Source: a candidate division BRC1 bacterium HGW-BRC1-1
Lineage (GTDB): Bacteria > Sumerlaeota > Sumerlaeia > Sumerlaeales > Sumerlaeaceae
Assembly (NCBI GenBank): GCA_002842095.1
Contig: PHCB01000017.1
Span: 1-49,184 of the forward strand
Direction of reading: 5' to 3'
DNA: 49,184 bases
The position numbers and the translations under genes are program-made. The first letter of the stretch is position 1, and every line of letters starts with the position of its first letter. Under the pieces are notes generated by a model that saw only the letters and a program-made list of their open reading frames with translations, had not been told where the DNA came from and searched no databases. Positions 9,342-42,640 of the stretch are shown here, piece by piece.

Positions 9342-9345
9342 GGTC

Positions 9346-10227
9346 TCACACCTCGTCCGGGAAAAGGCGGCGTGTGCGCACGAAAACCAATCGCCCGGCA
9401 CCATAAAATATCGTGGAGAGAATGAGCAAATACACCACTGAACTCAGAGCTGGCCCCCGATGCAGAATCACCGCATCGCGATACGCCGTCACGAGATGCG
9501 CCATGGGGTTGATGTTATACCACCTGTCCGCCCACGGATACGCCTTCGCGATCATCTCGTTGGTATAAACAATCGGCGTGGCCCAGAACAAAAATTGTAG
9601 GAGGGCCACCAGCAATTGCGCCGTATCGCGCGCAAAAACCTGAACCGATGCAAGCAGATAGGCCGGGCCGATCATCAGCAGAAATTGTAATGCCGCACAC
9701 ACCAGCAACCACGGTACCGTGGCCCAGTGGACCCCCTGCACGATGGCCGCAAACACCAGAAAAAATCCGAACGCCGTCAGGAAAGGCAGAACACCCGCGA
9801 GCAGCGGTGCTATGGGCAGAATGCCCGAGGGAAACACAACTTTCTTGATGAGACTGCCGTTACCCGTGATCGATGAAGCCGCGCCCAACAACGATTCATT
9901 GAACCAGTTCCATCCCAACAGCGCCGGGCAGAGAAACATCGCATAGCCGACCGGGTGCCCCTGCACATCGAACCGCCCTCCGCGCACCAGCGTGGAGAAG
10001 ACGAGGATATACAGCCCAAGCACCACCAGCGGGTGAATGATGGACCAGAAAATCCCCAGCGACGAACCCGCATAACGCGCCCGTAGATCGCGCACCACAA
10101 ACGTATGCATCAGCCGCCGGTTCGCCCACAACTGCCGCTCAATGCCGGCCCGCGCACCCACCATCACCGGGGCCAGCGGCCTTGTCGTTTGTTCCATCTC
10201 GGAAGGTGCTTCCACGGGCCCGTTCAT
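9346..10227 (-). CDS. wzm: Wzm-type polysaccharide export ABC permease
   Basis: This 293-aa ABC-2 family permease has six predicted membrane helices and an N-terminal cytoplasmic amphipathic region (QLWANRRLMHTFVVRDLRARYAGSS), the gate-helix area typical of Wzm and TagG. Conserved features include SLGIFWSIIHPL, a membrane-interface helix pair around GNGSLIKKVVFP, and NPMAHLVTAYRDA near the C-terminus. Its ATG overlaps the stop of the upstream GHL10 gene by ATGA, and its stop lies 4 bases before wzt. With Wzt it should move the completed undecaprenyl-linked glycan across the inner membrane. A Wzm/Wzt pair implies cytoplasmic completion of the chain, in contrast to Wzy-dependent polymerisation. 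Confidence 0.93.
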   Translation of the reverse strand: MNGPVEAPSEMEQTTRPLAPVMVGARAGIERQLWANRRLMHTFVVRDLRARYAGSSLGIFWSIIHPLVVLGLYILVFSTLVRGGRFDVQGHPVGYAMFLCPALLGWNWFNESLLGAASSITGNGSLIKKVVFPSGILPIAPLLAGVLPFLTAFGFFLVFAAIVQGVHWATVPWLLVCAALQFLLMIGPAYLLASVQVFARDTAQLLVALLQFLFWATPIVYTNEMIAKAYPWADRWYNINPMAHLVTAYRDAVILHRGPALSSVVYLLILSTIFYGAGRLVFVRTRRLFPDEV

Positions 10228-12179
10228 TCGGGATGCAACGGACGGGCCTCAAGCCCGCGACGCGCCGCATCCCAGCGGTTTTGTTTATCCATCGATGTTT
10301 GCGAGAAAATCATCACGCCGCCACCCTGCTCCAGACTCTGCCGCACGGCCGCTTCAAACAACACATCGCTGTTGAGATTGGGCACATACAAACCCGGCGC
10401 CAGAGGCAGCATAAAACCCGTAACCCGCTGCGCGATCTCAATGCCACCTTCGATCGTCGTGTCCGGCGTTGGAGATTCTGTCTTTTTCACCGCCGTGTAG
10501 TACACCCCCGGCGACAAATAATCGAGCAGTTGAGCATAGCCGGTTTTACCGTAGCCCTTCGGTGCCCAGTCAAACTCGGCCGAGGGATCGTAATCCTGCG
10601 AGGCCCAGTTCACGCCCACCTCCCAATACTCCGAGTACCATCCACCCACGTAATCGCCAAGCAACACCTTGTGCTCATCGGCCAGCGCGCGGCACTTTTC
10701 GACGAACTCGCGAATGACCGATGGACGCCACGCGACCCATTTGTCGTACAGCGCACCCTTGTGCATCTCCTCCCCGGTCCACAGGTTGGCAGGCACGTAG
10801 ATATCATCGGGCCAGTGCGCGACTTTCAGCTTTTGAGATTTCTCAAAAGCCCGGCGCGACACATCGCTGAAATCGGTTTTGAAATTATCGAAACGCACAC
10901 GGTCCAGCGTCACCCCGTCCACGTCGTACCGCCCCATCACTTCCTTGATCAGCGCCAAAAGGTGTTCCTGAACTTCGGGATTTACCGGGTTGAGATAGAT
11001 CAACGGACCGCCCGCATGATCCGATTCGCGCTGCATTCGCGTTTCCATCGCCACCGAGATTCGTTCTCCCACGGCAGGCGGCGATGTTCTCGCGTCATCC
11101 CAAACAGCCACAAATCCATCGGGTGGAATCGCAAGGCTTGCAGCACCCAGCGATGCTTCTCGCACCACCGTCGTCACGCAGTCGTTTCGCGCCACAACCC
11201 ACCACGCATTGCTTCGCCCGATGCTGCTGTCGGCAGTGTCTGTGGCGCTTGTTGCCACGTTCACACCGGCCGGCGTCATCACATATATTTCGTCCAGACG
11301 ACCCATTGCGTCATTTCCCGGATCGGAAAACTCAACCTTCAGCGTACGCGCCTGCGTCCCCGAGGTTACAGGCAAACGCAATTCTGTGGCGGCGTTGGCA
11401 TCCACCGATGCCAGGTTCTTTCCATCCGCCATCAGCCGCACTCCGGGAGCCGGAACTCCGCGCGGGAAGTGCAGCACAACTTCATCAATCGCCTGCGGCT
11501 CTTTCCAATCGAGTTGCAACCAGTGGGTGGTCGTCGTGTTGTCACTCACCCAGCGGCTCGCCACCTTTCCCTTCACACCGTCGGCGGCATTTCCGGGCGT
11601 GTCCCGCGCGTACAATTTTTCGGCATAAGTCCGATTGAAAACGCTCACGCCCGCACCGGCGCGTTCGTTCACGCCCCGCGCCGTGGTTGTTTTTCCGTCA
11701 CCCCACTGCACCCCGGCCACCCGGTCATACACGACCGATTCCCATTCCGGATGCTGCCGCGCAATACCCGTCGTGGCGGCCTTGGCACCTCCCACGAACA
11801 CGTTCATCCCGGCGTGGGCCTGCATGCCGCGCTTGTGGGCCTCCTCCACCAGCACCGACAGGAAATCAAAATCCTGCGGATACCCTTCGATGGTCGACGC
11901 CCGCGGCCCCACATCGCTCTGCCAGAAGGAAACTCCGTGCCAGCTTCGCACATCGCCCACCACAATGTTGAACCCCGCGTCCTGAGCCTTGTCCAGCATG
12001 GCAGACACCGCCTCGCGGCTCGCCAACGCTATCGGGTCAGATTCATTATCCAGCCACAACATGCGGGGTGGCAACGGCAACGTGGGCTTCTCGGCGCGCT
12101 TCTCCGCCGCGCTCACAGCAACCGCCCCCGCTACCAGCAACATTGCCCCCAATGCCAGACTACGTTTCATCCTCATCAT
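10224..12179 (-). CDS. GHL10-type glycoside hydrolase with inserted F5/8C-like domain, secreted
   Basis: This 651-aa protein has a signal peptide (MMRMKRSLALGAMLLVAGAV, cleavage near SAA). Residues ~38-180 begin a GHL10-like TIM barrel (PRMLWLDN; FNIVVGDVRSW; EEAHKRGMQAHAGMNVF). The barrel resumes at ~385 (LIYLNPVNPEVQEHLL; YDVDGVTLDRVRFDNF), which matches the strand carrying catalytic acids in this superfamily. Between them, residues ~180-303 resemble an F5/8 type C (discoidin-like) sandwich (NAADGVKGKVASRWVSD; HWLQLDWKEPQAIDEVVLHF). The start overlaps the TPR gene stop by ATGA. In this operon it may trim or modify the glycan in the periplasm. The substrate is not predictable. Confidence 0.8.
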   Translation of the reverse strand: MMRMKRSLALGAMLLVAGAVAVSAAEKRAEKPTLPLPPRMLWLDNESDPIALASREAVSAMLDKAQDAGFNIVVGDVRSWHGVSFWQSDVGPRASTIEGYPQDFDFLSVLVEEAHKRGMQAHAGMNVFVGGAKAATTGIARQHPEWESVVYDRVAGVQWGDGKTTTARGVNERAGAGVSVFNRTYAEKLYARDTPGNAADGVKGKVASRWVSDNTTTTHWLQLDWKEPQAIDEVVLHFPRGVPAPGVRLMADGKNLASVDANAATELRLPVTSGTQARTLKVEFSDPGNDAMGRLDEIYVMTPAGVNVATSATDTADSSIGRSNAWWVVARNDCVTTVVREASLGAASLAIPPDGFVAVWDDARTSPPAVGERISVAMETRMQRESDHAGGPLIYLNPVNPEVQEHLLALIKEVMGRYDVDGVTLDRVRFDNFKTDFSDVSRRAFEKSQKLKVAHWPDDIYVPANLWTGEEMHKGALYDKWVAWRPSVIREFVEKCRALADEHKVLLGDYVGGWYSEYWEVGVNWASQDYDPSAEFDWAPKGYGKTGYAQLLDYLSPGVYYTAVKKTESPTPDTTIEGGIEIAQRVTGFMLPLAPGLYVPNLNSDVLFEAAVRQSLEQGGGVMIFSQTSMDKQNRWDAARRGLEARPLHPE

Positions 12180-15067
12180 TCCTTACCTTTCTCTACCGGG
12201 GGCTGGCCTTTTTCCACACGGGCCAACGCTGCCCGGGCTTTGCGCACCAAGACAAAATCCTGTGCGCCGGAATCGACATACAACCGCAGCAACCGCTTCG
12301 AAAGCTCGGGATCCTTCAAATCGCCATACGCCACCAGCGCAGCTTCATACATGCCCGCGAGAGCCTTGTCGTCGTCCGGTCGCCGATTCGCCAGTTCCAC
12401 CCATGCCGTTACCGCCTCGCGCCCCTCCCCCGCCTGGCGATGTACTTCGCCAATGTTGAAACGCGCGGTAACCGCCGTCTGTGAATCGGGGAATTTCTCC
12501 ACCACCACCCGATACGCTTCCAATGCTTTCGTGGCATCCTGCTTCACATAATACAACTGCCCCAGCAGCAGATAGCTGTCGGGCAGAAGCGGACTTTCGG
12601 GCAGCTTTGCCTGCATTTCGCGGAGGAATTTTTCCGCACGATCCTCCGCCTTCACCTGCATGAAAAGCTTCGAGGCGCTCAGATAAAACTCTGACTTTCC
12701 CGGAATCTCGCGTTCGCGGCACGCATCGAGATAATCCAGCAGTGCGGGCACCGTCGCGGCATCGTTGGCCAGTCGCAACATGGCCGCGAAAAGTTGGGGC
12801 TGGGCATACGGCTGTCCGTTGAGCCCGGTCTCGAAAATCCGGCGATAAATCGCCTCGCTCTTCTCCAGGGCCCCCTCCACCCGCAGCGCGTCGGCGTACT
12901 TCAGCCAAACTTCGTAATCGTTCGGATCGATGTTCAGCGAGGTCTCATAAAAATGAAGCGCATCGGCTGCGAAACCATTTTCGTCCAGAACTCCCGCCGC
13001 CATGGCCTGCACCTTCGCCGAGCTGGTGTTGCGGTCCGCCAGTTCCAACGCCACCTTCTTCGCGGTCTCGACCTCGCCGCGCACCTGCAACAGCCGCATG
13101 AGCGCCGAGTAGTTATCGGGGATCATCGGCTGCAACTCAATCAGCCGGCGATAAACACGCATGGCCAATTCGGTTCCGGCGAAGTCCACAGCATGCACCA
13201 CGGGCAGCGGTTTGCTCTCGTCCTTCGTGGTTCCGGTTCCCGTGGCGCCCGTGTCCAATTCCACCGGTGCCGTCGCGTATTGCGTGGCCAGTTCCGCCAC
13301 GAACCGCAGCATCTGCACGTTATCCCAGTCATTCTCCAGATACCGTGCGTAATGCTCCATCTCTTCGCCATGCAGGCCGTTGGCCGCGCTGATCCTCGCG
13401 CGCAGCAACAGCAACTGCCACTGATCGGGCGAGGCAAGGCGACGGTCCACCCGCGTTACCAGATCGTCGGCCAGCTTCACGTCCGTCAGCGACCTCAACA
13501 CAATGTCGCCCATGACCTGCAGATCGCTGAAGTTCGCCGCCGATGCCAGTTCAACCCACGTGTCCAGCACCTGCGCCGCAGTGCCTCCGCGCAACGCCGC
13601 GCTCATGGCAAGTTCACACAGCCGCTGTCGCTCCTCGGGGCTCACCCGGTTCACATCCAGCGGGGCCAGCACCTCCAGGGCTTCCTGGGGGTTTGATGTG
13701 GCGAGATTCTGTTCGGCCAGCATCAGCCGAATGCCCGTGTCCGTCGGTTGCTCCGCCAGCAAAATGTTGAGAATCGGAATCGCTTCCGGCGCGCGGCCCG
13801 CTGCTGCCAGAGCCCGGGCCCGCTCATACGCCACCACGGGAGTGTTCCCCGCGCTTGCACTCGTCAGCAGATCCAGCGCTTCCGTTTCCACGCCCTCGCG
13901 CAGGGCCATGCGTGCCGCCAGCCAGTATTCGATGCCGGTGGCGTTGCCACTATCCAACTCGCGGTTCAGCCACGCCTTCAGCGCGGCGAACAAACGCTCC
14001 TCCAGCGCACGCCGGATGATCAGATCGCCCAGCCCCAGAGCCTTCGCATAGTCCGCCTCGTTCACCATGGTGGAACGAATCATCCGGCCGATCTCGGAAG
14101 GCCTGTTGCCGGAGAGTTTCAGAAACTCGATGAAGAACGACCGCTTTTCCCAGGGGCCGAAGTTGCCGTCCACCGCACCGAGAAGCACCGCGCGCGCTTT
14201 GTCGAATTCGCGCAGATCACGATGCACCCGTGCCGTGAGCCAGACCAACGGGAAATAGCCGGGATTCGCCGCGCTGGCCTTGTCCAGCGTAGCCTGCGCG
14301 CGAAGCGTTTCATCGGCCACAACGGCCAGCCGGGCCAGCGAAATCCAGTAGTCCGGGTCGCCCTTGCGGTCGCGCTCGTACTCCGTCATCACACCGGGCA
14401 GGCGATCCGCTTTCCCCGTTCGCGCATAAAAATGCGCCAGTTGAACGTAATATTTTCCCGGCAGCACCGAGACCCGAATCGCCTCGCGATACAACGCCTC
14501 GCTGTCGGTCTGCAGGCCCAGCACCAACGATGTGCGGATGGCGGCGTTCAGGGCGAACTCAGTGCCGGGGTTGTTCCGCACCAGTTCCCGCGCCAGCAGA
14601 TAAGCTTCGCCCATCATGTTACGCCGCTCAAATTTCTGGACCTGTAGTTCCTGCGACATGGTGGTCGATTTGTCGACCTTGATGGGCAACTGCTCGGACA
14701 AGTTTTCCGCTTTCAACGGCAGAGGCTCCGAGGTCGTCAGTTCCAGCACTTGCGTTGCCGTCTCAATCTCATCTTTTTTTACCGGAGCCGCCACCGGCGC
14801 CGTTACCTGCTCGGCCGTAACGGAAGTCTCGCCCATCACCACCGACGTCACCGGCAGCGTCGTCATCCGCGCCGCAGTCTCGACATCAAAAAAGTCAGTC
14901 CCCAACCGCAGGCTGCCGGTCGTGGCGGACAATGCCGATTGCGTGGCCGACGTCGTTTCCTGCGCCCGCGTTTCCACGCTGATACCCAGCAGAAGCACGG
15001 CGCAGATGACCGTGGCCAAACGCGCAGAGGCAACTTTTCGAGAATTCGTCATCATGAGAAGCGTCAC
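12176..15067 (-). CDS. Large secreted/periplasmic TPR protein (963 aa)
   Basis: The N-terminus (RLATVICAVLLLGISVETRAQ) is a signal peptide, followed by a low-complexity Thr/Val-rich segment to ~residue 130. The rest is a long superhelix of TPR and TPR-like units: for example FERRNMMGEAYLLARELVRNNPG, YEVWLKYADALRVEGALEKSEAIYRRIF and LLGQLYYVKQDATKALEAYRVVVEKFPDS, and finally a Lys/Glu-rich tail. The GTG at 15067 overlaps the upstream GT4 stop by GTGA; ATG codons a few residues on (MMTNSRKV) are alternatives. Large TPR proteins in exopolysaccharide clusters act as scaffolds for export across the periplasm and outer membrane (AlgK- and PelB-like). That role is inferred from context, as no outer-membrane barrel gene is present here. 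Confidence 0.82.
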   Translation of the reverse strand: MTLLMMTNSRKVASARLATVICAVLLLGISVETRAQETTSATQSALSATTGSLRLGTDFFDVETAARMTTLPVTSVVMGETSVTAEQVTAPVAAPVKKDEIETATQVLELTTSEPLPLKAENLSEQLPIKVDKSTTMSQELQVQKFERRNMMGEAYLLARELVRNNPGTEFALNAAIRTSLVLGLQTDSEALYREAIRVSVLPGKYYVQLAHFYARTGKADRLPGVMTEYERDRKGDPDYWISLARLAVVADETLRAQATLDKASAANPGYFPLVWLTARVHRDLREFDKARAVLLGAVDGNFGPWEKRSFFIEFLKLSGNRPSEIGRMIRSTMVNEADYAKALGLGDLIIRRALEERLFAALKAWLNRELDSGNATGIEYWLAARMALREGVETEALDLLTSASAGNTPVVAYERARALAAAGRAPEAIPILNILLAEQPTDTGIRLMLAEQNLATSNPQEALEVLAPLDVNRVSPEERQRLCELAMSAALRGGTAAQVLDTWVELASAANFSDLQVMGDIVLRSLTDVKLADDLVTRVDRRLASPDQWQLLLLRARISAANGLHGEEMEHYARYLENDWDNVQMLRFVAELATQYATAPVELDTGATGTGTTKDESKPLPVVHAVDFAGTELAMRVYRRLIELQPMIPDNYSALMRLLQVRGEVETAKKVALELADRNTSSAKVQAMAAGVLDENGFAADALHFYETSLNIDPNDYEVWLKYADALRVEGALEKSEAIYRRIFETGLNGQPYAQPQLFAAMLRLANDAATVPALLDYLDACREREIPGKSEFYLSASKLFMQVKAEDRAEKFLREMQAKLPESPLLPDSYLLLGQLYYVKQDATKALEAYRVVVEKFPDSQTAVTARFNIGEVHRQAGEGREAVTAWVELANRRPDDDKALAGMYEAALVAYGDLKDPELSKRLLRLYVDSGAQDFVLVRKARAALARVEKGQPPVEKGKE

Positions 15068-16224
15068 CTTGTGGCTTCTCCCACGGTCTCGGCAAGAAAT
15101 GTCTCCAACGGCGCGCGGAAATCCTTTCCGCCGAAATCCTGCGCAACTTCATCGCGCACGCGGGCAATCATCGGAGCACGACTTTCACGATGCCGCGCCT
15201 CATAGGTCAGCACCGCCGCCAACGCTGCCGCATCGCCCGGCTTCACCAAAGCACCGCGACGCCCCCCCCGCAGCAGCAGCGCGCAATCGCCCACGTCGGT
15301 ACAAACCACCGGTGTTCCGCAGACCAACGCTTCCACTATTAGAATGGGCAATGCCTCATTGCGCGATGCGGAAACAAACAGATCCGCCGATGCCAGCGCC
15401 GTGGGCATGTCACTGACAAGACCCGTGAAATGCACCCGACCCTTCAGCCGTCCCATCTGGGCGCGACGTTCCAGTTCCCCTGCAAAATCTGCGCTTTCGG
15501 CCGGAGCCTCCCCTGTCAAAACCACTCGCAACGGTACACCCGCGGCCAGCGCCACGGCGGCGGCTTCCAGCAACACGTCCGCCCCCTTGCGCGCAAACAA
15601 TCCGTTGGCCAGCACCACCACATCATCCGCAGCAGCACCCCAGCTTTGGCGCAGTTCCTCGTTGCGACGCGCCGCCAGCAGTCGATCCACATCAACCCAA
15701 TTTCGCACCACCAGTTTGCGCGCGACGCTCGGCGCGGGAAACGCCTCCACGCCCGTCTGCGAAGCATAAAGTAATCCCCGCGACAACCGCTCGATCACCC
15801 ACAGCTTCACCCGCAGTTTGCGTCCGGGCGGGTTCTCCACCGTTTCGTGAACATGCCACACCACCGGCACCCGCGCCAGGACCGCCGCCAGACCCGCAAA
15901 AACCGTTGAGGTGGAATTGATATACGCGAGATCGAACTTTCCACGCCGTAACGTCTTCGCCAGACGCAGCACATATCCCCCCCGCCCGGCCAGCAAACGC
16001 ATCCGCGACCACGCACCGCCAGCCGCATCCAGACTAACTTCCGCGTTGGGCACCACAACCGGTTCCACGCCCATCGACTTCGCCCGTCCTGCCAGCGGCC
16101 CCTCCCCCGGCAGCACAAGCGTGCAGTCAAACCGCGCGGGATCCAACTGCCTCACGGTATCCAACAGGGCCACCCCTGCCCCTGAAACCTCCGACAAGTG
16201 AGCCACCATGGCGCAACGGATCAT
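15064..16224 (-). CDS. Glycosyltransferase family 4 (GT-B)
   Basis: This 386-aa GT-B enzyme has an N-terminal acceptor domain (MIRCAMVAHLSEVSGAGVAL; FDLAYINSTSTVFAGL) and a C-terminal donor domain with LANGLFARKGADVLLEAA and ASRNEALPILIVEALVCGTPVV. The motif E-A-L-P-I-L-I-V-E supplies the EX7E pair. The ATG overlaps the ligase-like gene's stop by ATGA. It is the second gene of the run, so is expected to be highly expressed and may act early in glycan assembly. Donor sugar unknown. Confidence 0.88.
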   Translation of the reverse strand: MIRCAMVAHLSEVSGAGVALLDTVRQLDPARFDCTLVLPGEGPLAGRAKSMGVEPVVVPNAEVSLDAAGGAWSRMRLLAGRGGYVLRLAKTLRRGKFDLAYINSTSTVFAGLAAVLARVPVVWHVHETVENPPGRKLRVKLWVIERLSRGLLYASQTGVEAFPAPSVARKLVVRNWVDVDRLLAARRNEELRQSWGAAADDVVVLANGLFARKGADVLLEAAAVALAAGVPLRVVLTGEAPAESADFAGELERRAQMGRLKGRVHFTGLVSDMPTALASADLFVSASRNEALPILIVEALVCGTPVVCTDVGDCALLLRGGRRGALVKPGDAAALAAVLTYEARHRESRAPMIARVRDEVAQDFGGKDFRAPLETFLAETVGEATR

Positions 16225-17693
16225 GCTGTGTCAGGCCCCGCCACAACGTCTGCGTTTAACTCCTGCGCTCCAACCACCCCGTCTCCCGGCGTCGGCCCGC
16301 GCAGCAACAACCGTTCATCCATCAGCAGCGCCACGCCCATCATCACCCAGTTTCGCACATAAAGGAAATTATCCTGAATCATCGCGCTCAGCAGCGCAAA
16401 CAGACTCCACGTCAGCACCAGGGCCGCCAGGTTCACAGCCAGCAAATCATCAGTTTCCAGAGCCCGGCGCCGCAAGCGCCACGCCCGCCAGATGATGGTG
16501 CCCATCAAAACAAAATAACTTCCGAGGCCCACGATACCGGTCTCACTCAGCAACTGCCAGTAGCCGAAATCAGGAAACCGCAAACGGGTGCGCTCCTGAT
16601 ACTGAATGGCATGCGTCGGATAATCGGGGGGGATAAATTCCGGCCAGCTCACAGGAAACGAACCCAGCCCCACCCCGAAAAAAGGATGCGCGGCAAACAT
16701 CTGCTGCCCCACCAGAAACGTGTCGCGCCGCTCCAGATAGGAAACATCGGTCTTAACTTCCCGCACCGACAAAAACCGTTTTACCAGCATCGGCAAAATC
16801 GTGGCCGCCACCAGCACGCCCCCCGCCACCACAAAGCCCAACACCAGCGTGCGGTTGCGATATCGAAACAGCCACGCACAGGCGCCTCCCACCACCGGGA
16901 TGAACACCAGCGTCTGGCGGTTGAAGGTAACAAGGGCCGCGACAATCATCACGCATCCCATCGTCATGGCCAGAACCCGACCCGCGGTGAAACGTAACTG
17001 CGAAAATAGGAAGAAGACAAAGGGGAGCGCAAAAACGAGATTCCATCCGAATACGATGGAATTTTTCGCGCCCCCCGTAATGCGATTCTGGCCGGCAAAG
17101 CGCCCGGAGAAATCCGTCAGCAGCCCCTTTTGGGCGGCCTCCATCAAACCGGCGACGGCGGAAAAAAAAGTGAGCCCCACCACCAGCCATGCCAGCGCAT
17201 TCACACTGCGCTCGGTGCGCAACATCCCCGCCACACACCATGCCATCAGAAAGTACACCACCACACTGCGACCGTGCTCCCAACCCCGCACGAGGTCCAA
17301 ACCCGTCAAAGCGTTCACCGTGAAGTACAGCGATATAAGCGCCAGCAGAGGGAGCATGCGGCTTTCCACCTTCAGCGCATTGCCCCGCAATTTCCACACG
17401 ATAAAGGAGAGAAAAAACAATATCGCCAAAGGCTGATTGACCGATATTCCAACGCCAGGCAAGCGGGTGTCGGCAAAGAACAAAGCGGAAAAATAAAGCG
17501 CGAACGGCACCACCGGATGCACCAACCCGGCAACCAGAACAGCCCCCACCGCCGCCACCGCCAGTGCCCCCGTCATGCCAAAAAAGACAATCGGCTTGGG
17601 AAGCAACCACATGACCAGCAGCACGCCCAGAGCCATCACGAACGCAAAGCGCCGTGTGGTCAGAAATTCAATGGACTTATCCGCTGCCTGCAT
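16221..17693 (-). CDS. O-antigen ligase/polymerase-family membrane protein (Wzy_C-like)
   Basis: This 490-aa protein has about twelve membrane helices and one large outside loop before the last helices, the topology of WaaL and Wzy proteins. The C-terminal Wzy_C signature is visible as PDFGYWQLLSETGIVGLG, although the usual leading His-Asn is replaced by Phe-Gly. The outside loop contains VGLGSFPVSWPEFIPPDY, as in ligases. It is the first gene of the eleven-gene minus-strand run; a GGTGGA Shine-Dalgarno lies about 9 bases before the ATG at 17693. Because the operon also encodes Wzm/Wzt, this protein more likely acts as a ligase attaching the exported chain to an acceptor than as a polymerase, but the two cannot be separated by sequence. 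Confidence 0.85.
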   Translation of the reverse strand: MQAADKSIEFLTTRRFAFVMALGVLLVMWLLPKPIVFFGMTGALAVAAVGAVLVAGLVHPVVPFALYFSALFFADTRLPGVGISVNQPLAILFFLSFIVWKLRGNALKVESRMLPLLALISLYFTVNALTGLDLVRGWEHGRSVVVYFLMAWCVAGMLRTERSVNALAWLVVGLTFFSAVAGLMEAAQKGLLTDFSGRFAGQNRITGGAKNSIVFGWNLVFALPFVFFLFSQLRFTAGRVLAMTMGCVMIVAALVTFNRQTLVFIPVVGGACAWLFRYRNRTLVLGFVVAGGVLVAATILPMLVKRFLSVREVKTDVSYLERRDTFLVGQQMFAAHPFFGVGLGSFPVSWPEFIPPDYPTHAIQYQERTRLRFPDFGYWQLLSETGIVGLGSYFVLMGTIIWRAWRLRRRALETDDLLAVNLAALVLTWSLFALLSAMIQDNFLYVRNWVMMGVALLMDERLLLRGPTPGDGVVGAQELNADVVAGPDTA

Positions 17694-28804: not shown

Positions 28805-30256
28805 TCAGGGCACGGTTGTTTCGACGATCGTTGCGCTCCACCATGGCCCCACCGGGCGTCGCCAGAACATGTCCCATCGGAACGCGGCTTCGTCCGTCCA
28901 TTGCTGGCCATTAGTGTCCCAAACCCGTTCTCGAACCCGCACCTTCTCGCCCTTCAGACTGGCGTCGAACACACCCCAGCGGCGGCCCTGATCATCGAGA
29001 AGACCCGGCTGGCGCGTTATGGTGTAACCATACGCACGGTAGCACCTTTCGGACAGATGGAACTTTGGGTCGCGGGCTCCGAGCCACCGCAGCACAATCT
29101 GGTTGTGCCCATCACCAAACCGTGCGACGTGCCCGGCCATGGAACTGTAGTAGCGGCGTTCCATCGAGCCGAGGGGCAGTTGCGTGAGCGCCGCTCCGTC
29201 GAACTCCACCGGCCATCCGGGAAACGCCGCCCTCGCGCCCAGATCAACGCCACCCGTCAACGGCAGCAACGGCACCAATGCCGCAACGGCGCAGACCGCG
29301 AGCATTGCGAGCAACACAGGTTTCTTTCCGGAGGTCGCGCGGTTGTTACTCGGCCCATCGTGCGCGCATTCCGCCTGACAATCTCCTTGCGTTGAGGCCG
29401 CCTTCAGCGAGGGGGCAGCCAACGCCGACACCATCCAGGCAATGGCAATTGCCGCGACGCCGAACACCGCCAGACCCAGAAACATGTGCATCGGATCCTC
29501 TGCCGTCCCGCGCCCTACCGCTTGCAAAAGAAACAGTGATGTCTCCCTCAGGATGTTCGCTGCGAAGACGACGGCGGTGGCTCCGAGGGCGGCGGCGAGC
29601 GTCCTGCGTCCGTTCAAACCAGACCAACCCGCCAATGCACACGACAGCACAAGCGCCGACCACAGCATTTTCACGCCGCTGCACGGCTCATCAATGAGGA
29701 CGAGGTTGGTGCCCCAGCGCAAACACGTGCCTTCGGGCACGACGACAAAGCCAAGCAGATGCAGCCACCAACTCACCACCACCGCCCCGGCTACCCTCAT
29801 GGGATATCCGATGTGGGTTTGCATGGAGGGAATGATTGGCAGCGCCAGCACCAGCAGGCCGACCAGCCCGGCTCGAATGCCCGCACCCATCATGGATCCC
29901 AGCAGGAACCCGATGGATGCCATGGCGAGGCCGGCGCCAATGTGCGGTGGGACAAACGGATAACTGACGGCGTAGGCGATCATGAGCGCGATCGGGATTC
30001 CCATCCGGGGGACGGCGATTTCGCCGCGCGACACGGCACGAACCACGAGCCCCACGGCAACGAACAACGCCACAGCACCGGTGATGTTCTCGGGGATGTC
30101 GACCAGCCGCTGCGCCACCCACTGCCACACGGCCCAGAATGCCGCGAACTGCACCGCCGGTAGAATCAGCCAGATGCGGGTCTGGGGCGTTCCGGTGGGT
30201 GCAGCGGGCGCGGGAGAATCACTGATGACCTCCCGCGCGGGGTCCGCCGAACTCAC
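28805..30256 (-). CDS. Exosortase/archaeosortase-family transpeptidase with C-terminal extension
   Basis: This 483-aa protein has roughly eight membrane helices in its first ~280 residues. The exosortase triad is clear: Cys192 in DEPCSGVKMLWSALVL, Arg237 in FAANILRETS and His257 in EDPMHMFLGLAVFG. Exosortases cleave PEP-CTERM tails at the membrane and probably attach the released protein to another molecule. Residues ~325-483 form a periplasmic extension (FPGWPVEFDGAALTQLPLGS; HLSERCYRAYGYTI) resembling the EpsI/DUF3485-type domain fused to some exosortases. The GTG at 30256 overlaps the VIT/PEP-CTERM gene stop by GTGA; the longer frame to 30334 lies inside that gene. The neighbour is its obvious substrate. 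Confidence 0.9.
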   Translation of the reverse strand: MSSADPAREVISDSPAPAAPTGTPQTRIWLILPAVQFAAFWAVWQWVAQRLVDIPENITGAVALFVAVGLVVRAVSRGEIAVPRMGIPIALMIAYAVSYPFVPPHIGAGLAMASIGFLLGSMMGAGIRAGLVGLLVLALPIIPSMQTHIGYPMRVAGAVVVSWWLHLLGFVVVPEGTCLRWGTNLVLIDEPCSGVKMLWSALVLSCALAGWSGLNGRRTLAAALGATAVVFAANILRETSLFLLQAVGRGTAEDPMHMFLGLAVFGVAAIAIAWMVSALAAPSLKAASTQGDCQAECAHDGPSNNRATSGKKPVLLAMLAVCAVAALVPLLPLTGGVDLGARAAFPGWPVEFDGAALTQLPLGSMERRYYSSMAGHVARFGDGHNQIVLRWLGARDPKFHLSERCYRAYGYTITRQPGLLDDQGRRWGVFDASLKGEKVRVRERVWDTNGQQWTDEAAFRWDMFWRRPVGPWWSATIVETTVP

Positions 30257-32931
30257 GTGGTGCCCACTCCCGTGCGCCTTCCACGCATCACCATCCAGAG
30301 CCCCACAGCCAGCGCGACGAAGATGAGCGCCCACGTCTCGGGTTCGGGAATGGTTGGAACCGTTGAGGCGTCAACGGGCGTGAGACCGGCATCATCGAAC
30401 ATCTGCTGGTTCTCGAGCACCACGGCACCGGTTAGCGGTGTGACAAGCTGGTAGGCGGTCGCCAATTCAACGGCATGGAACTCCTGCTCCCAGTCCGCCC
30501 TGATCGCCATGCGTCGCACCTCATCAAATGCCCACAGGCGTGCCACGTGCCCGTCGCTGCGCGTGGGCGTTGTGGTTGCGTCGTCCGCAGTGCGTCCGCG
30601 CTTCTGGCGATTCCACGCCAGCCGCGTGTAGTTGCCGTCGAACATTGCGAGAAATGCTTTCAGATCATCGCCGAGCGTGACCCCGCGCGGCACCTTGTTA
30701 ATATCGCAGACGAGGTCCCACTCGGGCAGGATACTATCCCGGCCCGGCGCGATCTGGAGTTCGTACACGATGGGTTGAGTGTTGGAGCGCTCAGCCCCCT
30801 GCAGAAGCGTGTCGAGAGGTTTCATGATCACCGGTTGCGGCCCGTGGATCCACACCAGCAAGCCGTCCTTACCCTCACCCAGCAGCGCGAGGGCTTTTTC
30901 AAGGGCCGGCACATTGTCCTGTCCACCCTGGCAGGAGAGTTCCCCAACCACCTTGCGCATCTGCTCCAACGACGCCTCCGTCACTGTGGAGAATTCGCCG
31001 ACTTCGCTCGTCTCGCCAGCAGAGGCCACGATGACAGCGGCGCGCGACCCCATGGGTAGCGCGGACAGGGCTTCCTCCACGGCGGCCCGGTGTGGCTCCA
31101 TGGAAATCGAACCATCCACCACAACCACAATCCTCTCCGCTCTCGGAATCTTCCCCGGCTTCACTTCCTGCTCAATAACCTGGGTAGTGGATGAAACCAG
31201 ATCGGCAAAGGTTCGGGTGGTGGGCTCGTCGCTTCGGAGAACCGTAATAACCGGACGCGAATCAAGGTCCGCGCCTGACAACTTGCCGGTCACACGCATA
31301 GAATTTGCGTCTCCGTGCTCCACCTTCAACGGAACTGCCCCACCCAGTTTCACATCGCCCGCGACCTCGACCCACACGCTGTGGGATGCGTCGCGGCCCA
31401 TCGCAAAATTGCGGTCCAGGAACATCGGCAGGGTGAATTCTACTTCCCCGCGCGACACGAGATTCAGGGGCACGGTGATTCCGATGCGTGTCTTAAGCTG
31501 TCCATTTGCGGGAACCGGAAAACATTTCATCAGTACACGGTCGTTACCGGATGTCGTAACAATCACCGGGTCCCGTTTTTGTCTGACGATATTTTCATAC
31601 GCCTCGGTGACCTTGCCTCGCCGCGCGAAGGCCGCCTCTCGCTCCTCACCGTTCACCCAAAGCGTCAGTCGTGACACAACAGCACCCGGTGGCAGGGCAA
31701 TTTGAGCCCGCCCTTCGCGTGCCCAACTCTCCCTATTCTCAAAGGTCATGGTCCACTCCACATAGCCCACACCGGCATCTCCATCCACGATTGCGTCCAT
31801 GCGTGAACCGTTCAGGAGAAGGTTATGCTCGACCGCTCCGACCGAACCGTCGCGGTTTGAGGGGTTCACCTCCAGCCAGTCCACCCATTCGCCGTTAGGC
31901 GTCCGCCGATTCGCGGGAGGAGGCACGCTGGTAAAGCTGCGCCCGGTCATGCGATAGTAAACCTCCCGCGCTTGCTTGGTTTGGTCCGTACTGTGACCAA
32001 CTCCTGGCCACCAAGAAGGCCCGGGCGACATACGCCGCCCACGGGGCTCGCCATAACAAGCCCGCAACAGAGCGTCCTCGCTACCCACCGAACGAAGCAC
32101 CGCCATTCCACGAGCGCGAACTGACGGATCATCCGCTGCCGTCCAACCGAGAGCACTGTTAGTGAGAAACTCCTGGCCATACATCATCAGCAACGCGATC
32201 AGGACAGTGCCGACACCCCACCCTATATGGGAGGGGAAACCACGCCCCGCAGCACCCGCGATAGCCTTCAGCCGCTTGCGCATAACCGCAGTCCCGATCA
32301 AGGAAAACAACGGGCTCAATGGCAGCAACCCCATTCCAAGTATCAAGATCGCGAACACCGCGAACGGCATCACGGGGAGGAAGAGAAGAGTGTAAAAGAT
32401 CGTTACACCAAGCGCGGCCCCATTGGCAAACAACAGCAATCTTGGAGAGCCTACTTTACCGGTACGCAGGGCCTTGAACCCAAAGAGATTGGCAATTGGC
32501 ACCAACGCGACCAACAGGACGTGCCAGATGGTGGGGATGGGATCGAACATATTACCGGCGCAGTAGCCGGTGTACGACTCGAACGCCAGAACACCTGCCG
32601 GGAACAGCACGCTGAGGATAAAAAGAAGTGGAGTGGCCTTGGGACGCGCGGTGCCCTTGCCTTTTTCTGGCTCGGTGACATCGGGCACCGCATCGAGACC
32701 TGCCGCGTAGGACTCGGGCGCATCCATTTCCGCCAGAAGTTGCCTTATCTCCAGGACGGTGGGCTGTTTGTCACCGATCATTTCGGAAATCTGACTGCGG
32801 ACATCATCCACCACGGCGAAGCGGTGGCCCTCGGGAGCACCGGCATCCTCCAGCGCACTATAAATGGCGCCGAGATGGCGGGAAATCAGGTCCTGCACTT
32901 CTGGGTCTTGATGGGGCTCCTGGTTGCTCAC
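30253..32931 (-). CDS. HAAS-like/multi-TM/VIT/VWA protein with PEP-CTERM sorting tail
   Basis: The GTG at 32931 overlaps the PadR stop by GTGA, with GGGAG a few bases upstream, giving 892 aa; the longer open frame to 33252 lies inside padR. Residues 1-80 are a helical cytoplasmic domain (LISRHLGAIYSALEDAGA; LEIRQLLAEMDAPESYAAGL) resembling the HAAS domain found next to PadR regulators. Residues 101-260 hold about five membrane helices. Residues ~360-490 form a VIT domain (GYVEWTMTFENR; KVTEAYENIVRQKRDP). Residues ~600-760 form a VWA domain with MIDAS residues D606-G-S-I-S. The tail is IPEPE (861-865), a hydrophobic helix (867-882) and RGRR, a textbook PEP-CTERM signal. The exosortase is encoded next door. 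Confidence 0.88.
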   Translation of the reverse strand: MSNQEPHQDPEVQDLISRHLGAIYSALEDAGAPEGHRFAVVDDVRSQISEMIGDKQPTVLEIRQLLAEMDAPESYAAGLDAVPDVTEPEKGKGTARPKATPLLFILSVLFPAGVLAFESYTGYCAGNMFDPIPTIWHVLLVALVPIANLFGFKALRTGKVGSPRLLLFANGAALGVTIFYTLLFLPVMPFAVFAILILGMGLLPLSPLFSLIGTAVMRKRLKAIAGAAGRGFPSHIGWGVGTVLIALLMMYGQEFLTNSALGWTAADDPSVRARGMAVLRSVGSEDALLRACYGEPRGRRMSPGPSWWPGVGHSTDQTKQAREVYYRMTGRSFTSVPPPANRRTPNGEWVDWLEVNPSNRDGSVGAVEHNLLLNGSRMDAIVDGDAGVGYVEWTMTFENRESWAREGRAQIALPPGAVVSRLTLWVNGEEREAAFARRGKVTEAYENIVRQKRDPVIVTTSGNDRVLMKCFPVPANGQLKTRIGITVPLNLVSRGEVEFTLPMFLDRNFAMGRDASHSVWVEVAGDVKLGGAVPLKVEHGDANSMRVTGKLSGADLDSRPVITVLRSDEPTTRTFADLVSSTTQVIEQEVKPGKIPRAERIVVVVDGSISMEPHRAAVEEALSALPMGSRAAVIVASAGETSEVGEFSTVTEASLEQMRKVVGELSCQGGQDNVPALEKALALLGEGKDGLLVWIHGPQPVIMKPLDTLLQGAERSNTQPIVYELQIAPGRDSILPEWDLVCDINKVPRGVTLGDDLKAFLAMFDGNYTRLAWNRQKRGRTADDATTTPTRSDGHVARLWAFDEVRRMAIRADWEQEFHAVELATAYQLVTPLTGAVVLENQQMFDDAGLTPVDASTVPTIPEPETWALIFVALAVGLWMVMRGRRTGVGTT

Positions 32932-33260
32932 TCCGAATCTCCCTTTGTCAGCTTGGCAATCTCTGTCTGAATTTCGTTCCAATAGGAAAGCATCTCGCGC
33001 AGGCGGGCGGCACCGAGCGGTGTGAGGCGGTAGTACCGCCGCGGTGGGCCGTTGGGCGATGGCGCGACACGCACGCGCAGCATGCCGTCCTGGGCCAGAC
33101 GGGCAAGGACGGGATACACCGTGCTCTCGCCGAACGCGAGCGAATCGGCCTCGGCGAGGCGCTGGAGCACCTCGTATCCGTACGCCTCGCGCTCGCGCAG
33201 CACAGCAAGGACGCAGAGTTCCACGAGTCCCTTTCTCATCTGTGCAATCCACGTGCGCAT
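32928..33260 (-). CDS. PadR-family transcriptional regulator
   Basis: This 110-aa winged-helix repressor-type protein has the N-terminal PadR domain (KGLVELCVLAVLREREAYGYEVLQRL), the recognition part (SLAFGESTVYPVLARLAQDGML), the wing (VRVAPSPNGPPRRYYRLTPLG) and a C-terminal dimerisation helix. The ATG at 33260 has a GGAGG Shine-Dalgarno 7 bases upstream (33268-33272 on the plus strand). Its TGA overlaps the GTG of the VIT gene, so regulator and target are translated as a unit. Autoregulation through the small dyad in its leader is likely but inferred. It probably controls the whole three-gene island. Confidence 0.92.
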   Translation of the reverse strand: MRTWIAQMRKGLVELCVLAVLREREAYGYEVLQRLAEADSLAFGESTVYPVLARLAQDGMLRVRVAPSPNGPPRRYYRLTPLGAARLREMLSYWNEIQTEIAKLTKGDSE

Positions 33261-33288: not shown

Positions 33289-33376
33289 GGTACAGCGCAA
33301 AGCGTAGTAGCTATGCAAGAAGAATTTTTCGAACTGATTGGAAGAACGCGAAGGGACTTGGTACGCGTGCCGGGGG

Positions 33377-39424: not shown

Positions 39425-39685
39425 ATGGGACTAATCAGCACGTTTATCTTTGGCCTCGTCGCAGGCATCGTTGCAAAAATGCTAATGCCCGGCCGTGATC
39501 CGGGCGGTTTTATCATCACCGCCATCATCGGTATTGTGGGTGCCTTCATCGGTAAATATATTAGCGAGCTGGTCGGCGGCACTGAAAACCTTATGCGTTG
39601 GACCTGGCCTGGCTTCTTCTACTCAGTTTTAGGCGCCATCGTTCTGCTGTTTCTTTATCGCATGATACGCGGCAGGAACGCCTAA
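39425..39685 (+). CDS. GlsB/YeaQ/YmgE-family stress-response membrane protein
   Basis: This 86-aa protein has three hydrophobic helices and the family pattern GLVAGIVAKMLMPGRDPGG followed by ITAIIGIVGAFIGKYI. An AGGAGAG Shine-Dalgarno stands 8 bases before the ATG at 39425; the longer open frame upstream (from 39323) is not needed. Members are small inner-membrane proteins, often called transglycosylase-associated, induced in stationary phase or stress; their biochemical role is unknown. The gene converges on the DUF1501 gene and their stop codons overlap (39682-39685). Confidence 0.9.
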   Translation: MGLISTFIFGLVAGIVAKMLMPGRDPGGFIITAIIGIVGAFIGKYISELVGGTENLMRWTWPGFFYSVLGAIVLLFLYRMIRGRNA

Positions 39686-40956
39686 AACAGCCCTGTCGCA
39701 GGCTCACCCGGCCAACCGAGCACCTTATCGGCCGGCGCTCCCAAGCGTTGCTTGAGTACCGCTGCGTACACGCCCCGGAAGTCTGTCGTATGGATAAGAT
39801 CGCCCCGGTCGAGTTCTGTCAGGCTGGGGCGTTTTCCATGCAATCCCGGCTTCACGCCACCGCCCAGCAGCAACATGGGCGCCGCCGTGCCGTGGTCGGT
39901 GCCGCCGCTGGCGTTCTCACCCACGCGGCGGCCGAACTCGCTGAAGGTCAACGTGGTGACACGCGCTTCATTGCCTTGCGCGGCCAGGTCACTCTGAAAC
40001 GCCAGCAGACCATCGCTCAGACGTTGCAGCAGATTGTCGTGGGACCCGGCCTGATTTGCGTGGGTATCAAACCCGCCGAGGGTCACATAATAAATGCGCG
40101 TGGGCAGACCGCCGCCAATCATTTTGGCCACCGTCTGCAATCCCTGCCCGAAACGATCGGCCGGATATTTGGTTCCGACCCGCGCCTTCCGAGCCGTCTC
40201 GCGCACGAGGTTCTCGGCGGCCACCGCGTCAAGAGCGACCTTTCGGACAAACTCCAGCGACTCATTCTTCGCACCACCGCTCGCCGCTGTGGCGCTCGCC
40301 CTTCCGCCGCCGTTCTCCGCCAGAAACGCCCCCTGTCGTGCCTCACCGGGGCCTTCCAGCCATCCGAAGGAATCGACATCCTGCAAGCAAACGCCCAGTC
40401 CCCGCCGTCCCGCGAAGGCCTGCGGGCGTTCATCGCCAAGGGCCAGGGCCGCTGTCGGCTGGCCCTCACCGTTGCATTGCGCATCGAGATAGCGCCCGAT
40501 CCATCCGGTGGGTGAATGCTTGTCCGAGTCCACCGCCGTCTGCCAAATCTCTGTGCTGCGGAAATGCGACCGGTTCGGGTTGGGGTAACCGACCCCCTCC
40601 ACAATGCCCAGCTTGCCCGAATCAAACAGTTCCTTCAGCCCGGTCATGCGCGGGTTCAGACCGCGCAGGCCGTCGCCCAGCGCCAACACTTTGCCGGGCT
40701 TCACGCCCAGATGGGGCCTAGCCCGGGCGTAGGCGTCATCGCCCACCGGAGCCACCATGTTCAGGCCATCGTTGCCGCCGGCCAACTGCACGACCACCAG
40801 AATGCGATCGTCGTCAAAACCGGGGATGGCACCCGAGGCAGCTGCAAGAGCGGCCTCGGCGGTCTTCAACAGGAACGACGGCATGGCCGCGCCCACGGCC
40901 AGCACGGTACTTGCCCTCAGAAAATCGCGTCGTGTGAACAACAAACTTTCTTTCAT
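39682..40956 (-). CDS. DUF1501 family protein, Tat-exported
   Basis: This 424-aa protein has a twin-arginine signal (TRRDFLRAS, then an Ala-rich hydrophobic segment to ~residue 37). The DUF1501 features VVVQLAGGNDGLNMVAP, YVTLGGFDTHANQAGSHDNLL, TLTFSEFGRRVGENASGGTD and HGTAAPMLLLGG resemble a sulfatase/alkaline-phosphatase-like core. GAGGG stands 7 bases before the ATG. It lies 34 bases after the DUF1800 gene, the usual order of this conserved pair. The activity of DUF1501 proteins is not established. The pair is abundant in bacteria that degrade complex polymers or have unusual envelopes. Confidence 0.93.
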   Translation of the reverse strand: MKESLLFTRRDFLRASTVLAVGAAMPSFLLKTAEAALAAASGAIPGFDDDRILVVVQLAGGNDGLNMVAPVGDDAYARARPHLGVKPGKVLALGDGLRGLNPRMTGLKELFDSGKLGIVEGVGYPNPNRSHFRSTEIWQTAVDSDKHSPTGWIGRYLDAQCNGEGQPTAALALGDERPQAFAGRRGLGVCLQDVDSFGWLEGPGEARQGAFLAENGGGRASATAASGGAKNESLEFVRKVALDAVAAENLVRETARKARVGTKYPADRFGQGLQTVAKMIGGGLPTRIYYVTLGGFDTHANQAGSHDNLLQRLSDGLLAFQSDLAAQGNEARVTTLTFSEFGRRVGENASGGTDHGTAAPMLLLGGGVKPGLHGKRPSLTELDRGDLIHTTDFRGVYAAVLKQRLGAPADKVLGWPGEPATGLF

Positions 40957-40990
40957 CGCATCGCCCTCGCCTTCGCCATATGTCCATTAC

Positions 40991-42640
40991 TCAACATAGC
41001 TGAAACTCCGCAGCGCTCAACAGCAGTTGCAGCCCCGCGCGCAGATGGGCCTCGTCCATGGCAGCCACGGGCACCGCGACCCTGGTTCTGTCTTCCGCGC
41101 CGCCTGCCAACGCCAATGCCACCCGCCGCCGCACCGCCGCATCGGGTGCGCTCCCGAGAAACCATGCTGCGAGATAGTCGGTCATTTCATCCGGCGTCAT
41201 TCCTTCGCACGGAGCAAAAAAGTCGCGCGCCTTCATCGGCGCCCGACGCATCATGCGCTCACTGTCGCGAGCCTCCTGCTTGCTCCGCAGTGTTCTGGCC
41301 AATTCCCGCGATGGAATTTCACCGCTCATGGCATCCTGCCCGGAGGGCGCATCGAGCATCCGCGTCGGTTCTGCGACCATGGCCTCCATGCTTTCCATGG
41401 GTTCGGAGGTCGCCGTCGCGCTTTTCCCTTTTCCGCGCACCGGTCGCGCCGGCACAACCCCGCTTACCAGATGGCTGGCGTAATTGCACCGCGCGAGAAG
41501 CGTGTCGGTGTTGATCCATGCGTGGCCACCGTCCCAGCCCTTCACATTGGGCGGATAAAACAATGTCTGTCCCATTGCGCGCATGGCTATCAACGTCACC
41601 CTCGGAGGATCGCCATCGACCACGCCGGGCAGGGTGCGCAGGTTCACCATCAACTGCGCCGGACTTTTGATCTGGGTGCCAAGGGCGCGGTCGCTGTAAA
41701 ACGCGCGCGACGCAAACATCTGCCTCAGCACGGGCTTCAACTCATAATTCGATGCCCGCATCGTGGCGGCCAGACCATCAATCACCTCCGGCTCCGGATC
41801 CTCGTATGCGAAGAACCGCCACAACCGCGTGCAGATGTGGCGCGCGCAGGCCGGGTTGGCCAGAATTGCCTCCACAACGTCGACCCCATCCAACGCGCCC
41901 ATCGTGCCGAGAAACGTCTTCTCGTCGTTGTCGTGGCGGCGCGCCTCATAAACGAACTCCCCGTTGCGGGCGGTCCATCCGGTGAAGGCCCGCGCCGCCG
42001 CCTTGATGTCATCCTCGGTGTAATTGCCGATGCCCAGCGTGAAAAGTTCCAACAGTTCCCGCGCCCAGTTCTCGTTGGGCTTCTGGCGCGAACTGCGCAT
42101 ATTATCGAGGTAACGCAACATGGCCGGACTGCGCGCCACGCCCAACACCAGCGTCTTGAAATTCCCCGACGCGTTCGCCCGAAGGAACATGTTGAGTTGG
42201 GCATTATCGCCGGGGTCGCGAACCTTCTCCGCCGACGTCACAAAATGTCCATGCCAGAAAAGCGTCAGCTTCTCTTCGAGGGGCCGTGGCGTTCGGGTCA
42301 TGCGATCCACCCACCATAGCTGCAACTCCATCATGGCCTCGCGGGCAGCTTTTTGGTGCGCCTGACGGGCCACGCGGCGCTCCTCCTCGGTCATGGTTGT
42401 CTTGCCCAGCCGCCCAATGGCCGCATATTCCGATTCAGGCAACGCGGGCAGGCCGGGCAGCGTGTCGGGATAACGCTCGTAGTCCACAAATGACCGCAGC
42501 GCCTCGTCGGGCTTCATTCCGGCGAGCCGACCCACGGCCAGCACCGGCACGCCAAACCCGGCGCGATTGAGCAGGTGGCGCGCGGTTTGTGCGTTCCACT
42601 GTACCGCCGAGTGAGCAAACGCCGGATCGAGAAGGGCCAT
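40991..42640 (-). CDS. DUF1800 family protein
   Basis: This 549-aa protein begins with the family hallmark AQTARHLLNRAGFGVP. Further blocks are LQLWWVDRMTRTPRPLEEKLTLFWHGHFVTS, NENWARELLELFTLGIGNYTEDDIKAAARAFTGW and NPACARHICTRLWRFFAYEDP. A Met/Ser/Glu-rich low-complexity segment (ATATSEPMESMEAMVAEP) interrupts the C-terminal part. GAGGAA lies 7 bases before the ATG at 42640. No obvious signal peptide is seen, although the partner DUF1501 is Tat-exported, which is a common mismatch in this pair. The molecular function is unknown. Confidence 0.93.
   Translation of the reverse strand: MALLDPAFAHSAVQWNAQTARHLLNRAGFGVPVLAVGRLAGMKPDEALRSFVDYERYPDTLPGLPALPESEYAAIGRLGKTTMTEEERRVARQAHQKAAREAMMELQLWWVDRMTRTPRPLEEKLTLFWHGHFVTSAEKVRDPGDNAQLNMFLRANASGNFKTLVLGVARSPAMLRYLDNMRSSRQKPNENWARELLELFTLGIGNYTEDDIKAAARAFTGWTARNGEFVYEARRHDNDEKTFLGTMGALDGVDVVEAILANPACARHICTRLWRFFAYEDPEPEVIDGLAATMRASNYELKPVLRQMFASRAFYSDRALGTQIKSPAQLMVNLRTLPGVVDGDPPRVTLIAMRAMGQTLFYPPNVKGWDGGHAWINTDTLLARCNYASHLVSGVVPARPVRGKGKSATATSEPMESMEAMVAEPTRMLDAPSGQDAMSGEIPSRELARTLRSKQEARDSERMMRRAPMKARDFFAPCEGMTPDEMTDYLAAWFLGSAPDAAVRRRVALALAGGAEDRTRVAVPVAAMDEAHLRAGLQLLLSAAEFQLC

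Follow-up and report, generated by a model that had tools for sequence, protein, structure and literature searches.

The window, a stretch of 49,184 nucleotides from contig PHCB01000017.1 of the candidate division BRC1 bacterium HGW-BRC1-1, carries at positions 28805-33260 three minus-strand open reading frames that encode, in the order of transcription, a PadR-family regulator of 110 residues, a VIT-domain protein of 892 residues, and an exosortase of 483 residues. All three reading frames are intact, and both gene junctions are 4-bp GTGA overlaps; the initial annotation had described three minus-strand genes joined in this way between the same limits, and the ORF coordinates bear out both the arrangement and the limits. 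In the following, G000 denotes the host genome, G005 a genome from the same family and another genus, and G008 a further genome of the host phylum. The features of the locus are listed below.

33291..33312, minus strand: candidate operator AGCTACTACGCTTTGCGCTGTA in the padR promoter region (window/G005 conservation)
32928..33260, minus strand: PadR-family regulator, 110 aa (PF03551; homologues in G005 and G008)
30253..32931, minus strand: HAAS/5-TM/VIT/VWA/PEP-CTERM protein, 892 aa (profile matches, hydropathy, model)
32689..32877, minus strand: HAAS-like N-terminal domain, residues ~19-81 (PF22564; model helices)
32182..32637, minus strand: predicted multi-TM region of five helices, residues ~99-250 (hydropathy, positive-inside; model helices)
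31483..31761, minus strand: VIT domain, residues 391-483 (PF08487, 43.3 bits)
30742..31134, minus strand: VWA-like domain with a DGSIS motif (weak PF13519/PF13768 matches; ITIH1 fold match)
30274..30351, minus strand: PEP-CTERM sorting tail, IPEPE-TM-RGRR (TIGR02595)
28805..30256, minus strand: exosortase, 483 aa, with fused EpsI-like domain (PF09721)
29366..30187, minus strand: exosortase 8-TM domain (Cys192, Arg237, and His257 invariant)
29681-29683, 29546-29548, and 29486-29488, minus strand: codons of Cys192, Arg237, and His257
28808..29326, minus strand: EpsI-like (DUF3485-like) C-terminal domain (encoded separately, downstream, in most relatives)

The exosortase belongs to its family by profile score (PF09721, 85.8 bits; cut-off 25.7), and an alignment of seven full-length proteins shows no variation at Cys192, Arg237, and His257, which had been reported as intact. 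The AlphaFold2 model of the enzyme has a mean pLDDT of 85.8, and a fold search of the PDB with this model gave no match at E<=0.001. Residues 311-483, the C-terminal extension to which the initial annotation had drawn attention, form part of the exosortase itself in the window, L003-L007, and L022; G005, G008, and most relatives have the corresponding sequence as a gene of its own, downstream. An EpsI-like domain is indicated by the position, the motif, and a single profile match below threshold: the PF11984 (EpsI/DUF3485) cut-off of 26.1 is not reached by any of 12 members, the window segment gives no match, and one of the 12, the separate gene of L018, reaches 20.3 bits. EpsI domains are known to be fused with, or encoded adjacent to, EpsH-type proteins (Haft et al. 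2006, PMC1569441). The VIT tree shows at least four switches between the fused and the split state, and a single origin of the fusion is not supported, the gene being split in G005 within the same family. The EpsI-like domain also contains an invariant His400 and Cys405 (HxxxxC) as well as invariant tryptophans, residues that could have a catalytic or ligand role of the domain's own.

The second gene product is composed of an N-terminal HAAS-like domain, a multi-helix membrane region, and an ectodomain that ends in a sorting tail. The VIT domain is well above threshold (PF08487, 43.3 bits; cut-off 26.5), and the sequence match to VWA is weak (17.9 bits; cut-off 27); the modelled ectodomain has inter-alpha-inhibitor heavy chain 1 as a structural match (6fpy, Foldseek E 5e-20). 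The distribution of hydropathy and positive charges predicts five N-terminal helices, which would therefore place the HAAS-like domain in the cytoplasm and the VIT/VWA region outside. The tail, which had been described from its IPEPE-helix-RGRR pattern, scores 20.3 bits against TIGR02595 (cut-off 16) in the genome scan and 13.8 bits in the protein scan, and is thus borderline by profile, with its presence at the C-terminus upheld by the genome scan; the PTIPEPE sequence is conserved among relatives. The melainabacterial VIT partners (L022:4576-7965 and L014:1206-4073) have long inserts, Ser/Pro-rich in L022, and their tails are of the VPESD type, not IPEPE.

The assignment of the HAAS-like domain, also made at the outset, holds in part. 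The window protein stays below the Pfam cut-off of 27 (PF22564; 18.3 bits in the protein scan and 23.1 in the genome scan), but the G005 protein passes it in the genome scan (29.5 bits, as compared with 24.8 in the protein scan); the G008 protein is also below, hence two of the three proteins are sub-threshold. The VIT protein is nevertheless the best genome-wide HAAS match in both G000 (E 3.7e-4) and G005, and Pfam places a HAAS domain at the N-terminus of all three VIT proteins inside the host phylum and of none of the eight from outside it. HAAS domains have been described as having a kinked third helix with a GxP motif (PMC11237479). The AlphaFold model of the window protein, which was built with almost no alignment depth in the HAAS region, predicts N-terminal helices at residues 10-29, 34-52, 59-68, and 72-81, with a break of helix 3 at D70-A71-P72, the GxP position, where the window has DAP; in G008, the motif is canonical (LGEPEALA, GEP). 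A PDB sequence search with the HAAS segment returned no HAAS relative, just designed proteins and apparent chance matches. As to a single origin of the PadR/HAAS addition, tree analysis neither recovers nor rejects a grouping of the three HAAS proteins as one clade (AU p 0.40).

The regulator is a clear PadR protein (PF03551, 69.6 bits; cut-off 27), and padR directly precedes the VIT gene in G000, G005, and G008, the G008 protein being a third homologue. The window and G005 PadR proteins, which occupy equivalent positions, share 69% identity, as compared with 41% each for the exosortase and, across its full length, the VIT protein. In the window, the PadR-like winged helix-turn-helix gene lies beside the HAAS gene with a 4-bp overlap, the gene adjacency expected of a HAAS-PadR dyad. 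Upstream of padR, 19 of 22 bases of the candidate operator are the same in the window and G005, within a surrounding region that is divergent; this block is a single site in each of the two genomes (G000 and G005) with up to three mismatches allowed, and its reversed control found no match in the same searches. Because the padR upstream region of G008 has another palindrome, TACCTTCCATTGCAAGGTA, the candidate operator is not common to all three copies. The most likely arrangement is autorepression, in which PadR would act on its operon through the candidate operator upstream of padR.

A profile search of the 3.77-Mb host assembly, which is ~95% complete and could lack a second exosortase or tail, found one exosortase, and the same genome has one PEP-CTERM tail (TIGR02595) even at E<=10, that of the VIT protein at 30274-30351; these counts take in tails of the kind modelled by TIGR02595. 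G005 likewise has one exosortase unit and one PEP-CTERM tail, again belonging to the VIT/exosortase pair. A one-enzyme, one-target device, as proposed when the locus was first read, is therefore supported by the counts in both genomes, with the single host tail residing on the expected protein, and an exosortase with many modelled PEP-CTERM substrates is ruled out by them. G008 encodes a second exosortase, nearest to XrtD/XrtW/XrtA, plus further PEP-CTERM proteins. Elsewhere, the exosortase of this clade is the sole exosortase of G068, G071, G075, G077, G078, and G080, which show 0-2 PEP-CTERM matches, and other genomes with clade loci add a strong EpsH-type exosortase and have 2-39 tails. One enzyme for one substrate fits as the clade's general rule, less certainly so in the genomes with a second exosortase.

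In the phylum sample of 40 genomes, an exosortase of this kind and a full VIT protein occur in the same three (G000, G005, and G008), and PadR and HAAS are present in all three of these copies. A scan of named genomes yielded 22 loci, from Acidobacteriota, Pseudomonadota (Massilia, Duganella, Steroidobacter, and others), Melainabacteria, Verrucomicrobiota, a Bacillota MAG, a Poribacteria MAG, and others. In all of the ~20 relatives with a contig of sufficient reach, the exosortase gene is directly preceded by the VIT gene, the VIT match being weak in L007, and the gene order VIT-exosortase-EpsI is kept by relatives in many phyla. No PadR gene was found beside the VIT/exosortase genes of relatives outside the host phylum; the co-occurrence of PadR, VIT/PEP-CTERM protein, and exosortase, which the initial annotation had put forward for a search across genomes, thus holds for the three host-phylum copies and for no relative beyond them. 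The VIT/exosortase core occurs widely, and the addition of PadR/HAAS is specific to the lineage. The distribution is patchy (three of 40 genomes in the host phylum and two of 396 sampled genomes in L008's phylum), which suggests transfer or repeated loss. The flanking genes in G005 differ from those of the window, and a plasmid search with the exosortase gave no match. In the complete genome of Massilia sp. H-1 (L024:5352-8801), the VIT and exosortase genes are spread over several frames, which reflects either a decaying copy or sequencing errors.

A polysaccharide cluster (3766-17693) lies ~11 kb from the island and contains a Wzm/Wzt-like ABC transporter (genes at 9346-10227 and 7617-9404), several apparent glycosyltransferases, a TPR protein, and an O-antigen-ligase-like protein, which scores 63.8 bits against TIGR03097 (exosortase-A-associated ligase; cut-off 188). 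Genes resembling murB and topA lie between the cluster and the island, and none of the window genes scanned has an XrtA-type PEP-CTERM marker over its cut-off. An eps-type cluster served by this exosortase had been named, along with many PEP-CTERM proteins, as the finding that would speak against a dedicated pair; the cluster present is of the Wzm/Wzt type, and nothing links it to the enzyme. An XrtA/EPS-associated system was rejected for the window, given the single tail and PrsT-like and ligase-like proteins below cut-off. Farther along, at 39682-42640, adjoining genes resemble a DUF1501/DUF1800 pair, recognised from sequence only.

On this evidence, the three genes probably form a self-contained, single-substrate, autoregulated exosortase unit whose substrate doubles as a membrane sensor for PadR through its HAAS domain. 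PadR acting at the conserved site before padR would keep the operon repressed, and the product of the second gene would serve as both substrate and sensor, with a cytoplasmic HAAS domain, five membrane helices, a VIT/VWA ectodomain resembling that of inter-alpha-inhibitor heavy chains, and a PEP-CTERM tail. The adjoining exosortase is predicted to cut at this tail and to move the new end onto an acceptor, and the fused EpsI-like domain may assist in this processing. Were the envelope or the processing state of the ectodomain to change, the membrane helices would relay this to the HAAS domain, and the capture or release of PadR by HAAS would set the supply of substrate and enzyme together. Several points count against this explanation: the sub-threshold HAAS scores of the window and G008 proteins, the weak VWA match by sequence, the different G008 palindrome, the ~95% completeness of the genome, the restriction of the tail count to TIGR02595-type tails, and the five N-terminal helices, which would hold the processed protein in the inner membrane, an unusual outcome for an export sorting signal. 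Since these helices stay on the protein after processing, it cannot simply be released from the inner membrane, and processing may therefore create a protein that is anchored at both ends. A bolder version, which we consider unlikely, is that the exosortase joins the substrate C-terminus to a surface acceptor to give an envelope-spanning protein, that HAAS reads its attachment or load, and that sorting itself is the signal to PadR; if true, the unit would be a sorting device that gauges its own completion. Whether the protein is anchored at both ends is what would tell an ordinary regulated sorting unit from one sensing its own product.

In a rival explanation, the dedicated exosortase/VIT pair is governed by an ordinary PadR repressor that answers a small molecule or general stress on its own, and the HAAS-like N-terminus has no signalling role. 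Direct ligand binding is common among PadR proteins, two of the three HAAS matches are sub-threshold, and every relative outside the phylum has the core pair with neither PadR nor HAAS, all of which would suit such an arrangement; yet the best genome-wide HAAS match in both G000 and G005, over the cut-off in the latter, is always N-terminal in the protein encoded directly behind PadR, and the canonical LGEPEALA motif of G008 and the modelled helix break at the GxP position also speak against it, leaving this alternative unlikely.

The exclusivity of the enzyme could also be questioned, in that the exosortase may process additional proteins whose tails the profile does not model, perhaps in concert with the Wzm/Wzt-type cluster at 3766-17693. 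Polysaccharide export clusters are the usual company of EpsH-type exosortases (PMC1569441), and the one in the window, with its ligase-like protein (TIGR03097, 63.8 vs 188) and TPR protein, is nearby; we nonetheless regard this as very unlikely, since no second PEP-CTERM tail appears even in the permissive search, the cluster genes scanned carry no XrtA-type marker over cut-off, and murB-like and topA-like genes intervene. That the island is a decaying or passenger element, acquired horizontally and with an exosortase that is no longer needed, would accord with its patchy distribution (three of 40 phylum genomes and two of 396 in L008's phylum), with the different neighbours in G005, and with the VIT gene in pieces in the Massilia copy, but is highly improbable for the window, where the frames are intact, the catalytic residues do not vary, the gene overlaps are kept, and PadR shows strong conservation across genera.

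An exosortase usually has many substrates, and its chemistry is difficult to study for that reason. A genome in which three overlapping genes supply a single enzyme, a single substrate, and a single switch represents a minimal system for exosortase function, one that allows asking what exosortases attach proteins to.

Among named families, XrtQ (NF012182) is the nearest exosortase for the window protein (126.3 bits) and for all ten relatives tested (140-177 bits), and membership is ruled out by score for the window protein against a cut-off of 270. XrtN, which had been cited at the outset for its known dedicated pairs in Bacteroidota, is more distant (TIGR04476, 36.1 bits; cut-off 200), and XrtN membership is likewise excluded, for the enzyme and for its partner. 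The VIT partners are nearest to the XrtN partner model TIGR04477, at 56-144 bits (window, 114.1; cut-off 250), and the MSEP-CTERM model TIGR04286 gives 59 bits (cut-off 150). These exosortases belong to a clade that spans many phyla and has no NCBIfam name, and the window points to this group, which current family models leave unnamed. No paper was found on an exosortase with PadR or HAAS, in agreement with the view that a PadR-controlled, HAAS-containing version is undescribed; none was found reporting an experiment on any clade member, and the literature on MSEP-CTERM, XrtN, XrtQ, and the class GN sortase yielded nothing bearing on the unit. The parts are of known kinds, and their combination was not found described.

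The XrtN/VIT pairs of Bacteroidota resemble the window in having a dedicated exosortase beside a large multi-TM VIT protein, and no NCBIfam model matches the window VIT protein better than that of the XrtN partner, although the score is below cut-off. We know of no PadR or HAAS associated with XrtN systems. From the XrtN/MSEP-CTERM systems, also of Bacteroidota, the window differs in its tail, which is PEP-CTERM. The proteobacterial dedicated sortase system (TIGR03785/TIGR03787/TIGR03788), which to judge from its NCBIfam names comprises one sorting enzyme, a VIT/VWA target, and its own two-component pair, has a sortase and a two-component system where the window has an exosortase and HAAS-PadR; its target model gives the window protein 28 of 552 bits. 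The PEP-CTERM/EpsH (XrtA) system with PrsK/PrsR (PMC1569441) shares with the window a PEP-CTERM tail, an EpsH-type enzyme, and an EpsI that is fused or adjacent, but has many substrates, an EPS cluster, and sigma-54 control, in contrast to the one substrate of the window.

True XrtQ (G932/L051) is similar to the window enzyme in its EpsI-like C-terminus and its position directly behind a VIT/VWA-type protein with a PEP-CTERM-like tail; unlike in the window, an apparent signal peptide replaces the HAAS and multi-TM region of the partner, and a CreB-like response regulator and a histidine kinase replace PadR. In the gammaproteobacterial genome of L051 (L051:3200-8926), a bona fide XrtQ (325.9 bits) with a fused EpsI-like domain sits behind these two regulators and the VIT/VWA-like protein, suggesting that XrtQ is also a dedicated, regulator-linked VIT system. 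Within the window's own clade, the gammaproteobacterial loci L052:5075-11417 and L053:1519-7998 have genes for a response regulator and a histidine kinase that diverge from the VIT gene at a distance of ~200 bp, and no such pair was found at the remaining loci. HAAS-PadR is a published dyad, in which HAAS is N-terminal to multi-TM sensors, and such dyads have been proposed as substitutes for two-component systems (Ravi et al. 2024, PMC11237479); that paper makes no mention of an exosortase or VWA, and the window resembles its dyads in that a stand-alone padR gene adjoins the gene of a multi-TM protein with HAAS at its N-terminus. That the same kind of module has HAAS-PadR in one lineage and a two-component system in another is what that proposal would predict. 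Two ideas that had been described apart, that of dedicated exosortase/VIT pairs and that of HAAS-PadR dyads replacing two-component systems, thus meet in this unit, and some of its relatives have a real two-component system in the place of PadR.
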